Assembly: GCA_028875855.1 (NCBI GenBank) | Contig: JAGWVA010000006.1 | Location: 27,340 to 91,339, forward strand | Source of the DNA: Paracoccaceae bacterium | Lineage (GTDB): Bacteria; Pseudomonadota; Alphaproteobacteria; Rhodobacterales; Rhodobacteraceae | Reading direction: 5' to 3' | Length of the DNA: 64,000 bases | Shown here: positions 53,146 through 56,627 of the stretch, piece by piece | Layout: each line of letters starts with the position of its first letter | Numbering within the stretch: the first letter of the stretch is position 1 | The notes under the pieces: generated by a model | Databases searched by the model: none | What the model saw: the letters and a program-made list of their open reading frames with translations, nothing else | Told to the model about the DNA's origin: nothing | Translations under genes and position numbers: made by a program

Positions 53146-54618
53146 TCACAGCGGAATGGCGACATAGACCATCATGTCGGGGAAGTGGCTCGAGAGCGGC
53201 GCGATGGACAGACCGTTCACCGCCCCCTGCGACCGCGTCCAGTTCTGCCCGACGTCCATTCCGACGCGCGAGCCGTTCGGCAACAGCTTCTCCAGCCCGA
53301 CGGACAGGCGCAGGCCGCTGGTCACGAAGCGCTGCGCGAAGTTCACGCCCCCGGTGATCGACGACAGCGACGAATAGGGGATCGTCGATGCGGCGCCGAA
53401 GCTGCTTCTGAAATACGACAGGGTCACGTTGCCCTTCACGGTCGGCGACCAGATGTTCTCGAAGGACAGCATGGCCGTCATCCCGTCCGACAGGTGCAGG
53501 CCGCCGCGATTGTCCACCACGTAATCCGTCGCGAAATAAGGCGCCCCGAGATAGCCCATCGCGCCATGGGCAACCGCGATCGAACCGTAAAGCGATCCCG
53601 CGACACCCAGGGCCTTGGGCACCCGCTTGCCCAGCACGTCCGACCACAGGAACTTGTGTTCGAACGCGGCGATCCCGGCGAACCCGATGGGATGGTTCTG
53701 CGCCGACTGGCTGGACAGCCGGTCGGTGATCCGATGCGCCGCGCCCGCCAGCTGGACGATCGTCTTGCCCCACCCGATGCGCCCCTGCACCACCAGATCG
53801 GGCGTCCGGCTCCAGCCCGAGTAATTCAGGATGCCATCCTGCTGGACACGCGGATTGCCATCCTCCAGCGCGACGGACACCGAATAGGAATTGCCCTTGC
53901 GATAGGTATAGACGATCGACGACGTGGTGTTCTGCGGCGTGTAGCTCTTGCCGACGGAATAGCCCCCGTGCAGAAAATCGAACTTGGACGGCTGAATGCC
54001 GATCTGAAACTTCCAGAACCGCACCCAGGCTTCGTGCACCAGCCCGCCATTGCCCCCGTAAAGCGTCCAGTGCCGCGTGGCCGGGTTCCAGAAGTTCGTC
54101 CCGAGATGCGATGTCCCGTCCTGCGTGAACGACAGCTCCGGATTGGCGACAAGGCCGAGGTGGAACAGGATCGGTCCGACCGGCAACTGACCGATCACGT
54201 CAAGATTGTAGGCCAGGACGGTTCCCAGCTTGGGATACTTCGTTGCCCCCGACACGTTCTGCTTTTCGTAAAAGATCAGCGGCACAGAGTTCACCGTGCG
54301 CGACCCGTGCAGATAGATGTCACTGGTTGCGAAACTCTTGCTGAGATAGGTGAACGTCCCCGCGCCCGAGTGCTGGCAGAAGGTGGTGGAGCCAAGCGGC
54401 TTCCAGCCGGGGCCCAGCGGCTGGCAGGCATCGGGCTTCGCCGGCCGGGCCGTGGCGACGGTCGGCGTGTGGGCCACGAAAGCCGAAGGCGCCGCCGGGT
54501 GGGCAACTGCCACGGGCGGCTCCTGCACGGGGGCGCGCAGATCGCCCGCAAGGGCATTGGTCGTCGCAAGGCTCAGGGCAGCGACAAAGGCGATTGACCG
54601 GGACAGGATGTTACTCAC
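53146..54618 (-). CDS. Outer-membrane beta-barrel protein downstream of curlin-like genes
   Basis: This 490-aa secreted protein has a signal peptide (ILSRSIAFVAALSLATTNALAGD), a Pro/Ala-rich linker of about 60 residues, then a region with two Cys (DACQPLG and TTFCQH) and a long body of alternating polar/hydrophobic strands. It ends in MMVYVAIPL, Leu replacing the usual terminal Phe. It looks like a porin-type beta-barrel; the exact family is not certain. The start is a GTG at 54618, 7 bases after the curlin-like stop, so it belongs to that operon. It may export or anchor the small proteins (inference). Confidence 0.72.
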   Translation of the reverse strand: MSNILSRSIAFVAALSLATTNALAGDLRAPVQEPPVAVAHPAAPSAFVAHTPTVATARPAKPDACQPLGPGWKPLGSTTFCQHSGAGTFTYLSKSFATSDIYLHGSRTVNSVPLIFYEKQNVSGATKYPKLGTVLAYNLDVIGQLPVGPILFHLGLVANPELSFTQDGTSHLGTNFWNPATRHWTLYGGNGGLVHEAWVRFWKFQIGIQPSKFDFLHGGYSVGKSYTPQNTTSSIVYTYRKGNSYSVSVALEDGNPRVQQDGILNYSGWSRTPDLVVQGRIGWGKTIVQLAGAAHRITDRLSSQSAQNHPIGFAGIAAFEHKFLWSDVLGKRVPKALGVAGSLYGSIAVAHGAMGYLGAPYFATDYVVDNRGGLHLSDGMTAMLSFENIWSPTVKGNVTLSYFRSSFGAASTIPYSSLSSITGGVNFAQRFVTSGLRLSVGLEKLLPNGSRVGMDVGQNWTRSQGAVNGLSIAPLSSHFPDMMVYVAIPL

Positions 54619-54625
54619 ACCGAAC

Positions 54626-55099
54626 TCAATATCTGCGGCCAATCGTGCTGATGGAATTGGCCTTGCCAAAAAGGGTGATGCTCAGCGCATCGCTGGTAAA
54701 CGACGAAAGATATCCCCCTGCAACAGGTGCAGAAGTATAGGAAACGCCCGATCCAGATGAATTTCCGGCAGACGATCCGGAATTTCCACCGGCCGATTGC
54801 GTCGCAACGACGGCATTGGCCCCATTCGGGCTGGCGCTGATCTGCGACGAATTCAGGACATTTATCCTGCCCAATTGGGTGACGCCAAGGGACTGGCTGC
54901 CATTCTTCTCGGAATTGATCGCGATATTCGTATCGCCGATCTGTTTGACAGTAATCGTGTCCGAACCGCCATTATCCTGAAAGAACGACCATATATTGAC
55001 CTTCGATGTCTGCTGCATGGTCAGCGTTTCGGCATGGCAGGAAACTGTCATCAGGATCAAAAGGGAAATGAAAGATACCGCGATGGATCTGGATTTCAT
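54626..55099 (-). CDS. Secreted protein with curlin-type repeats (CsgA/B-like)
   Basis: This 157-aa protein has a signal peptide (about residues 1-23, LILMTVSCHAET). Its N-terminal half shows curlin-type repeat units: VKQIGDTNIAINSE and VTQLGRINVLNSSQ follow Q-x-G-x2-N-x5-(Q/E). The second half is Ser/Gly/Asn-rich (SAGGNSGSSAGNSSGSG). This is the sequence style of amyloid curli subunits such as CsgA and CsgB. GGAGG precedes the ATG. A hairpin separates it from the paralogue upstream. Confidence 0.72.
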   Translation of the reverse strand: MKSRSIAVSFISLLILMTVSCHAETLTMQQTSKVNIWSFFQDNGGSDTITVKQIGDTNIAINSEKNGSQSLGVTQLGRINVLNSSQISASPNGANAVVATQSAGGNSGSSAGNSSGSGVSYTSAPVAGGYLSSFTSDALSITLFGKANSISTIGRRY

Positions 55100-55214: not shown

Positions 55215-55249
55215 ACCTCATCCGCACGGGAGATCGCGGCGGATGAGGT
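55215..55249 (-). terminator. Intercistronic hairpin in the curlin-like operon
   Basis: ACCTCATCCGC and GCGGATGAGGT form an 11-bp perfect stem with a 13-base loop, immediately after the third paralogue's stop. No T-run follows on the minus strand. It probably limits read-through or protects upstream mRNA, so that the small-protein genes are expressed more strongly than the curlin-like and barrel genes. Confidence 0.6.
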
Positions 55250-55255
55250 CAGGCC

Positions 55256-55639
55256 TCAGTTCGAAGCATCGCCGATCGAATTCGTGCTGTTCAGCAGGCT
55301 GAACATGCCCGACATGTTGATCGACCCGCCACCGGTCAGGCTGACGACGGGGCTCTGGATATTGATGAAGCTGCCGTTCCCGGGCGCGTTCACCGTTGCC
55401 GTGTTGCCCGCCTGGGCCACGAAGGCGCCGTTCACCATCCCGGCCTGCACGATCGACACGCTGTTCACGGCCGAATCCGTCGAACCCGTCATGTTCGGCC
55501 CGGTATAGACCGTGGTGTTGTTGTTGCCGATGCCGGTTGAAGAACCGGAGACGGTCGCCCCCGCCGAAGAGGTCGTCGTGGCCCAGGCCCCCGAGGCGGC
55601 AAGGGCCAGAACGACAGCGGTTCCAAGCAAGATCTTCAT
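55256..55639 (-). CDS. Small secreted Asn/Thr/Ser-rich protein, paralogue 3
   Basis: This 127-aa protein has a signal peptide ending SGAWATT. The mature part shares the paralogue pattern: TGIGNNNTTVY, AVNSVSIVQAGMVNGAFVAQAGN and C-terminal NMSGMFSLLNSTNSIG plus four residues. QAGMVNGAFVAQ fits the curlin unit Q-x-G-x2-N-x-A-x3-Q exactly. The ATG at 55639 has AGGAG 8 bases upstream; the track start two codons earlier is too close to it. It is the most divergent of the three. Confidence 0.75.
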   Translation of the reverse strand: MKILLGTAVVLALAASGAWATTTSSAGATVSGSSTGIGNNNTTVYTGPNMTGSTDSAVNSVSIVQAGMVNGAFVAQAGNTATVNAPGNGSFINIQSPVVSLTGGGSINMSGMFSLLNSTNSIGDASN

Positions 55640-55753
55640 TCGCATAACTCCTGTTTCGCGGGCTGTCTTCTCCCGCGCGCGAGCCCGGCCCGGCGCGGAC
55701 GGATGGCCCGGATCGGGGCGACCGGACCGGCCGCCCCATCGCAGGCCACTGGC

Positions 55754-56194
55754 TTAGTTGCCGATCGAGTTGGTGGTGTTCATCAGCTGGAACATGCCGC
55801 TCATGTTGATCGTGCCACCCGCCGAAGCGTTCTGGTTGTGATCGCCGTGGTTGTCGCCCTGCTGGCCTTGGCTCGGCGCACCGACGGACACTTGAACCAG
55901 CGGCGCGTCCACGCTGATTTCACCCGCATTCGCGGTCGCCTCTTCGCCGGCTTGGGCCGAAACGAAGCTGTTCAGGAAACCGGCCTGGGTGTTCGACGCG
56001 CTGTTGACGGCCGAGTCATGCGAGTTCGTCACGGAAGCGCCCTGATAGACGGTCGTGGCGTTGTTCCCGATCCCCGACGAGTCGCCGTGGACAGAGGCGC
56101 CGATCGTCGGAACGGCCGGGGCGTTGTAGCCATCGGCATAGGCAGCGCCGGCAGCAAGCAGAACGATCGCGGTGGTGGTGAAAAGCTTCTTCAT
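55754..56194 (-). CDS. Small secreted Asn/Thr/Ser-rich protein, paralogue 2
   Basis: This 146-aa protein has a signal peptide (LLAAGAAYA-DGYNA). The mature part reads SGIGNNATTVYQGASVTNS, then AVNSASNTQAGFLNSFVSAQAG with a curlin-like Q-x-G-x2-N-x5-Q unit, then an insert rich in Gln/Asn/His (SQGQQGDNHGDHNQNASAGG) and the shared C-terminal tail INMSGMFQLMNTTNSIGN. The insert is absent from the other paralogues. Clean SD AAAGGA. Confidence 0.78.
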   Translation of the reverse strand: MKKLFTTTAIVLLAAGAAYADGYNAPAVPTIGASVHGDSSGIGNNATTVYQGASVTNSHDSAVNSASNTQAGFLNSFVSAQAGEEATANAGEISVDAPLVQVSVGAPSQGQQGDNHGDHNQNASAGGTINMSGMFQLMNTTNSIGN

Positions 56195-56302
56195 GGTGTT
56201 TTCCTTTCGTTTTCTTGATGTGGAAACGTGGCTCGGCGGATCAGTTGCCGATCGAGTTGGTGGTGTTCATCAGCTGGAACATGCCGCTCATGTTGACCGT
56301 GC
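55757..56302. repeat. Near-identical DNA copies of the C-terminal tail in two paralogues
   Basis: The sequence beginning GTTGCCGATCGAGTTGGTGG is almost the same for about 55 bases at 55757-55812 and again at 56244-56299, encoding the shared tail NMSGMFQLMNTTNSIGN. The middle regions of the two genes also match well. This shows a recent tandem duplication, with possible gene conversion. Confidence 0.85.
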
Positions 56303-56627
56303 CGCCGTTGCCGACCGTCGCGCTCAGCAGCGGGGCCTCGACGCTCACGTCGCCGGCGTGCACTTCGGCGCTTTGCCCGGCCTGAGCCGAAACGAAGGTG
56401 TTCAGAAAGCCCGCCTGCGTGCTCGACGCGCTGTTGACGGCAGCGTTTTCGGAATTGGAAACCGAAGCGCCCTGATAAACCGTCGTGGCGTTGTTGTTGA
56501 TGCCACCCGAATTCCCGCCAATCGACGCACCGATTGCGGGTGCGGCCGGGGCGTTGTTATAGCCATCGGCAAAAGCGGCGCCGGCGGCAAGCAGAACGAT
56601 CGTGGTGGAGGCAATGAGTTTCTTCAT
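56241..56627 (-). CDS. Small secreted Asn/Thr/Ser-rich protein, paralogue 1
   Basis: This 128-aa protein has a signal peptide (LLAAGAAFA-DGYNN). The mature part reads SGGINNNATTVYQGASVSNS, AVNSASSTQAGFLNTFVSAQAGQ with the curlin-like unit Q-x-G-x2-N-x5-Q, and the C-terminal tail VNMSGMFQLMNTTNSIGN. It is the first gene of the leftward five-gene operon, with AAGGAAAAG as SD. I know no named family. A secreted fibre subunit or surface coat is inferred from the repeats. Confidence 0.78.
   Translation of the reverse strand: MKKLIASTTIVLLAAGAAFADGYNNAPAAPAIGASIGGNSGGINNNATTVYQGASVSNSENAAVNSASSTQAGFLNTFVSAQAGQSAEVHAGDVSVEAPLLSATVGNGGTVNMSGMFQLMNTTNSIGN

Follow-up and report, generated by a model that had tools for sequence, protein, structure and literature searches.

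What do three adjacent genes do whose secreted products differ in the middle and end in almost the same residues, and what might this common ending be for? The question arises from the window (the whole 64-kb stretch of alphaproteobacterial DNA that was analysed), for which a first-pass annotation had reported three such paralogues at 55256-56627. Exactly three complete minus-strand ORFs occupy that span, here called P3, P2 and P1, and downstream of P1 they are followed on the same strand by two further genes, P4 and P5. In our view, P3-P2-P1-P4-P5 is probably a curli-like extracellular-fibre operon, in which P5 has a functional part, and belongs to an alphaproteobacterium that lacks CsgG. Curli are adhesive protein fibres by which bacteria stick to one another.

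Organisation of the locus

The features of the unit are the following:

56241..56627, minus strand: P3, secreted paralogue of 128 aa, first gene of the unit (basis: ORF, alignment, curlin unit)
55754..56194, minus strand: P2, secreted paralogue of 146 aa (basis: ORF, alignment, curlin unit)
55256..55645, minus strand: P1, secreted paralogue of 129 aa, the most diverged (basis: ORF, alignment, curlin unit, weak Curlin_rpt match)
55216..55248, minus strand: 10-bp inverted repeat (hairpin) between P1 and P4 (basis: sequence)
54626..55099, minus strand: P4, CsgB-like curlin of 157 aa with the C-terminal motif [YF]LSxFxxxxxSI...GRx[HY]
53146..54618, minus strand: P5, Porin_2-type outer-membrane beta-barrel of ~490 aa, whose GTG start codon lies 7 nt past the stop of P4

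The five genes lie on one strand with gaps of 46, 108, 156 and 7 nt and therefore fit an operon; no sigma-70 promoter pattern was found. The hairpin region that separates P1 from P4 (z = -3.1 over a folded stretch of 141 nt) possibly represents an attenuator or an mRNA stabiliser and could lower the expression of P4-P5 relative to the subunits. The spacer between P2 and P1 (55646-55753) folds as well, into two strong hairpins rich in GC (-62.6 kcal/mol, z -2.0), and these may influence how strongly the subunits are expressed relative to one another.

An N-terminal signal peptide was recognised by eye on each of P1, P2 and P3. Over their full length, P3 shares 75% identity with P2 and 48% with P1, and P2 possesses an extra Q/N/H/G-rich insert ahead of the tail.

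The conserved C-terminal tail

The tail reads GG[TS][IV]NMSGMFxLxNxTNSIG. Its segment N-M-S-G-M-F-x-L-x-N-x-T-N-S-I-G is invariant in the alignment save for the x positions, and the middle of the proteins is variable. The three proteins had been described as near-identical over their last 17 residues; the tail is shared, but it spans ~20 residues once the preceding GG is included, and P1 adds DASN after it.

56247..56306, minus strand: conserved tail of P3, GGTVNMSGMFQLMNTTNSIG
55760..55819, minus strand: conserved tail of P2, GGTINMSGMFQLMNTTNSIG
55271..55330, minus strand: conserved tail of P1, GGSINMSGMFSLLNSTNSIG

Scanned in six frames, the window showed the tail motif in these three ORFs only, and the paralogue profile gave three matches in all in the window's genome, with no fourth protein. 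Further afield, the P1-P3 profile produced no credible match in six further congeneric genomes (best E 0.09), nothing in 198 other genomes sampled from the family and chance-like matches only among 385 genomes sampled from the class, the family and class samples being limited draws. Eight of the class-wide matches (E 4e-4 to 0.05) were inspected and turned out to be signal peptides, out-of-frame or unrelated proteins. Relatives were likewise absent from genome-contig, plasmid and viral-contig collections. Since none of these searches returned a credible match, the tail is, as far as searched, private to this lineage; its absence from every other genome searched, the six congeners included, is an outcome that the first-pass annotation had taken to speak against its own proposal. 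The expectation that no named family carries this tail was borne out in Pfam and NCBIfam.

At the DNA level, a near-identity of about 55 bases had been reported for two of the copies, and indeed the longest identical run of P2 and P3 measures 54 nt and lies in the tail. Among shared residues, P2 and P3 differ synonymously at 0/16 sites of the tail and at 27/59 sites of the core (Fisher p = 3e-4), so that gene conversion or a recent partial duplication of this stretch is likely, in keeping with the earlier suggestion. In its tail, P1 has changed at 4 of 12-13 synonymous sites and still keeps 14-15 of 20 residues; its conservation as a protein is therefore not a matter of mere recency. By eye, the tail resembles the C-terminal motif of the P4 family (GG-V-N-I/M), but a profile of the latter scored P1-P3 no better than shuffled sequences, and this equation was dropped.

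A curlin unit within P1-P3

Each mature paralogue contains one strict curlin unit, N-x5-Q-x-G-x2-N-x5-Q, which the first-pass annotation, while right about the shared tail, had missed in the core along with the neighbouring P4-P5 pair:

56382..56435, minus strand: curlin unit of P3, NSASSTQAGFLNTFVSAQ, which carries the profile signal
55952..56005, minus strand: curlin unit of P2, NSASNTQAGFLNSFVSAQ
55412..55465, minus strand: curlin unit of P1, NSVSIVQAGMVNGAFVAQ, which overlaps the Curlin_rpt match

Scored as [NST]-x5-Q-x-G-x2-N-x5-[QN], such a unit arises by chance in 0.3-0.7% of shuffled mature P1-P3 sequences. Curlin_rpt (PF07012) stayed below the Pfam gathering score on all three proteins, with P1 the best (13.2 bits versus 20.7 needed, E 0.087), and across the whole genome the only other matches at E<=10 came from a curlin-CsgH locus of contig C10. 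When a profile of mature P1-P3 was run against 3,173 ORFs from 22 loci, the top six were all curlin-like, 13 such ORFs existing in that set. None of 60 column-shuffled profiles gave all-curlin top ranks, the reversed profile found no curlin-like ORF, and deleting the curlin unit abolished the rank signal. Because this profile scores low (best 10.6 bits), the curlin claim for P1-P3 rests on the rank and its controls and not on any one E-value. A profile comparison of P1-P3 with the P4 family was weak (E 0.087), a search of the P1-P3 profile against the PDB gave chance matches only, and AlphaFold2 returned no usable model of P3 (pLDDT 31, input of three sequences). By sequence, P1-P3 are marginal as curlin-repeat subunits.

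P4 and P5 are curlin and porin kin

On its own, P4 matched the CsgA model weakly (E 0.0046). A family alignment was built from the window's P4 and six relatives found beside P5-type porins, and the resulting profile retrieved curlins only from the PDB (8c50, E 7.8e-42; CsgA in 8enq, E 7.2e-9). Five of the relatives were scanned individually and matched CsgB, four of them at E 3e-11 to 5e-9. The family shares a C-terminal motif, [YF]LSxYxxGGVSI...GRxH, which P4 carries at 10.9 bits, a score that 0 of 500 shuffles reached. By the test for curlin-repeat subunits of the CsgA/B type, P4 is one of them, and its sequence places it as curlin kin.

P5 falls within Porin_2 (PF02530; 25.6 bits against a gathering score of 22, E 9.9e-6) and is, judged by sequence, porin kin. 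Its AlphaFold2 model is a beta-barrel (pLDDT 69, pTM 0.70) for which Foldseek listed trimeric porins (DcaP, OmpT, PorB), with FapF and CsgG absent from the top 50 structural matches. We know of no protein-export role for the trimeric-porin fold. One protein of the window's genome (L034), a 41% match to the P5 N-terminus, was considered as a relative and rejected as an unrelated short signal-peptide protein.

A P5 clade linked to curlin genes

No P5 relatives were present in 198 other genomes sampled from the window's family, and the class sample yielded one strong relative, in genome G273. With a profile of P5 and two relatives, we searched 199 genomes of the alphaproteobacterial family to which G273 belongs, of which eight carried a member of the P5 clade at >190 bits, ordinary porins scoring <92 bits. 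The neighbourhoods of P5-clade genes were then compared with those of 13 ordinary porins, an ORF with two or more QxGxxN motifs being taken as curlin-like. Such ORFs occurred near the P5-clade gene at 6/6 loci with enough flank (L080-L085, five genera) and at 0/13 loci of ordinary porins, bar one porin ORF itself (Fisher p = 4e-5; 5e-4 if the short contigs L032 and L057 count as negatives). P4 adjoins P5 at most loci. The two genes run in the same direction in the window and at L083 and L085; they converge at L081 and L082, diverge at L084 and are ~5 kb apart at L080. The linkage survives rearrangement, which argues for a shared function. P4 and P5 form the conserved core of the other P5-clade loci, at which no recognisable full-length relatives of P1-P3 were found.

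These loci show further features. In two genera, a small secreted protein with the motif ACLGGxLAxxxxEDYL is encoded directly upstream of P4 (L083:11221-11520, L085:7967-8236); it matched no family and is a candidate accessory factor. Three or more secreted proteins that consist almost wholly of NGN/GNGNxNxG repeats accompany the curlin and P5 genes at L080:5199-7330 and L081:11708-14146, and L032 and L057 contain related ones. Besides, four P5-clade genomes encode response-regulator/LuxR-type regulators, reminiscent of CsgD, directly upstream of the P5 gene (the Pfam check covered L036 only):

L036:4531-5897, upstream regulator
L081:7427-8897, upstream regulator
L057:399-1211, upstream regulator
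L032:3429-4774, upstream regulator

Absence of CsgG and of other curli components

A search for CsgG (PF03783) returned nothing at E<=1 in the window's genome (G000, 99.97% complete), and the positive controls were detected. No match passed the cut-off in any of the nine P5-clade genomes (the window's and the eight others, including the single-contig G773). Two incomplete ones gave short sub-threshold matches (E 0.01 and 0.5), and the absence is weak in three of the nine because each of these is <90% complete. In contrast, G199, from the window's genus, encodes a clear CsgG-family protein (E 3e-56; L053, G199:C49:45674-46318), so the family is detectable in this group. HfaB, the CsgG-family member of the holdfast anchor (Hfa) proteins, was not found in the window's genome, and the Caulobacter control was detected. 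Among the five operon proteins, neither CsgE or CsgF (Pfam, NCBIfam) nor a CsgC/CsgH chaperone gave a match.

The same genome harbours a second curlin locus (L006:7371-8642, on G000:C10), in which two curlin-like genes are followed by CsgH (L006:8232-8642; PF21112, E 3e-17) and a PAS/LuxR-type regulator, with no P5 relative beside it. Downstream lies a 439-aa ORF (L006:9974-11293) without a Pfam match and with a barrel-like end (...GLVYRF), by sequence a possible barrel partner of this second locus.

Discussion

From what the sequence establishes, namely the paralogy of P1-P3, their tail and its conversion-like identity at the DNA level, the curlin unit, the kinships of P4 and P5, the P5-curlin linkage and the absence of CsgG, we infer a fibre system. 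P1-P3 would be its subunits, each with one canonical curlin unit and the shared C-terminal element, and P4 a CsgB-like minor subunit. P1-P4 would cross the inner membrane by Sec, would be helped by P5 across the outer membrane or retained by it there, and would assemble into curli-like fibres that P4 nucleates or anchors. P5 itself would act as a dedicated outer-membrane barrel in place of CsgG, as exporter or as surface anchor; that it is the export pore itself we regard as rather doubtful. The tail is most likely a beta element at the end of the subunits, which might stack on the next subunit or dock to P4 or P5, with gene conversion keeping it uniform. The earlier idea of a polymer interface, as a possible role of the tail, agrees with the apparent curli-like fibre locus.

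Like the curli (Csg) proteins, P1-P4 are small, Sec-secreted and rich in N/Q/G/S. The P4 family matches solved curlins as well as the models of CsgB and CsgA, whereas P1-P3 hold a single N-x5-Q-x-G-x2-N-x5-Q unit plus a private tail and E. coli CsgA has five repeats. Unlike the Csg system, the genome lacks CsgG, and the operon lacks CsgH and has a Porin_2-type barrel. In outline, the operon is akin to Fap, in which the amyloid genes share an operon with an outer-membrane barrel of their own (FapF). However, Fap families matched none of the five operon proteins at E<=10 (Pfam, NCBIfam), so neither a Fap subunit nor a FapF/FapD homologue was found. In the alphaproteobacterium Rhizobium leguminosarum, porin-like outer-membrane proteins, RopA and RopB, are likewise tied to a surface amyloid (PMC6920782); there the porin-like protein itself is the amyloid, whereas the window's barrel accompanies curlin-like subunits.

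Alphaproteobacterial loci of curlin and CsgH without csgG have been described, with curlin subunits lacking a CsgG exporter (PMC3521004). The window's genome contains such a locus as well (L006:7371-8642), and our operon differs from this type by having a P4-P5 pair and no CsgH. According to this 2012 survey, curlin subunits are all that can be identified in many alphaproteobacteria, and alternative proteins must fill the missing export and accessory roles (PMC3521004). A porin partner for curlin is not described in the passages of the survey that were consulted, and a literature search by title and abstract found no paper on one.

The operon might instead make curli-like proteins while P5 is a porin for nutrients, regulated together with biofilm growth, the subunits leaving the cell otherwise and P5 neither exporting nor anchoring them. 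Its Porin_2 membership and a model that resembles general porins, with neither FapF nor CsgG among the top 50 matches, suit such a role, and so does the CsgH-containing locus, whose two curlin genes have no P5 relative adjoining, so that some P5-independent route may exist. Yet the P5 clade is specifically linked to curlin despite changing orientation, a link that 13 ordinary porins of this family do not show, and P4 and P5 are adjacent at most loci (7 nt apart in the window), and we consider this role for P5 unlikely.

Doubt could also fall on the paralogues, which might be lineage-specific secreted surface or matrix proteins that reached a curlin-like unit by convergence, their tail being a small beta hairpin with some role in binding. 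This would explain the single unit under the Pfam cut-off in each, the confinement of relatives to the window's genome in the collections searched and the lack of a structure signal; the profile-rank test with its shuffled and reversed controls and the position of the genes directly upstream of the CsgB-like P4 speak against it, and we give it limited credence. Far less probable is that a dedicated sortase-like or secretion machine recognises the tail as a C-terminal signal for sorting or processing. What speaks for this is the almost invariant C-terminus that three secreted proteins, variable elsewhere, have in common, but none of the NCBIfam CTERM models passed the cut-off on P1-P3 (the best, PID_CTERM, at E 5.4 and on the N-terminus), the tail has no hydrophobic plus basic segment, and the profile found no fourth protein in the genome.

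Within the fibre reading that we prefer, a bolder version would have the Porin_2-type clade as the dedicated exporter of curlin-like subunits where CsgG is lacking, a third kind of pore that carries functional amyloid across the outer membrane besides CsgG and FapF, and would see in the tail of P1-P3 an element peculiar to this lineage that serves for docking or stacking; this we put forward tentatively, as an improbable extension. The barrel clade is linked to curlin across two families and in several arrangements, always in genomes without CsgG over the cut-off. The P4-P5 pair is therewith a concrete, rare and testable candidate for the missing export role raised in PMC3521004. If P5 exports or anchors fibres, this would answer the question of the missing exporter for one group of bacteria and add a porin-fold route of amyloid secretion. 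The pairing of P5 with curlin, found also in distantly related bacteria, may explain how bacteria that lack the usual pore make curli.
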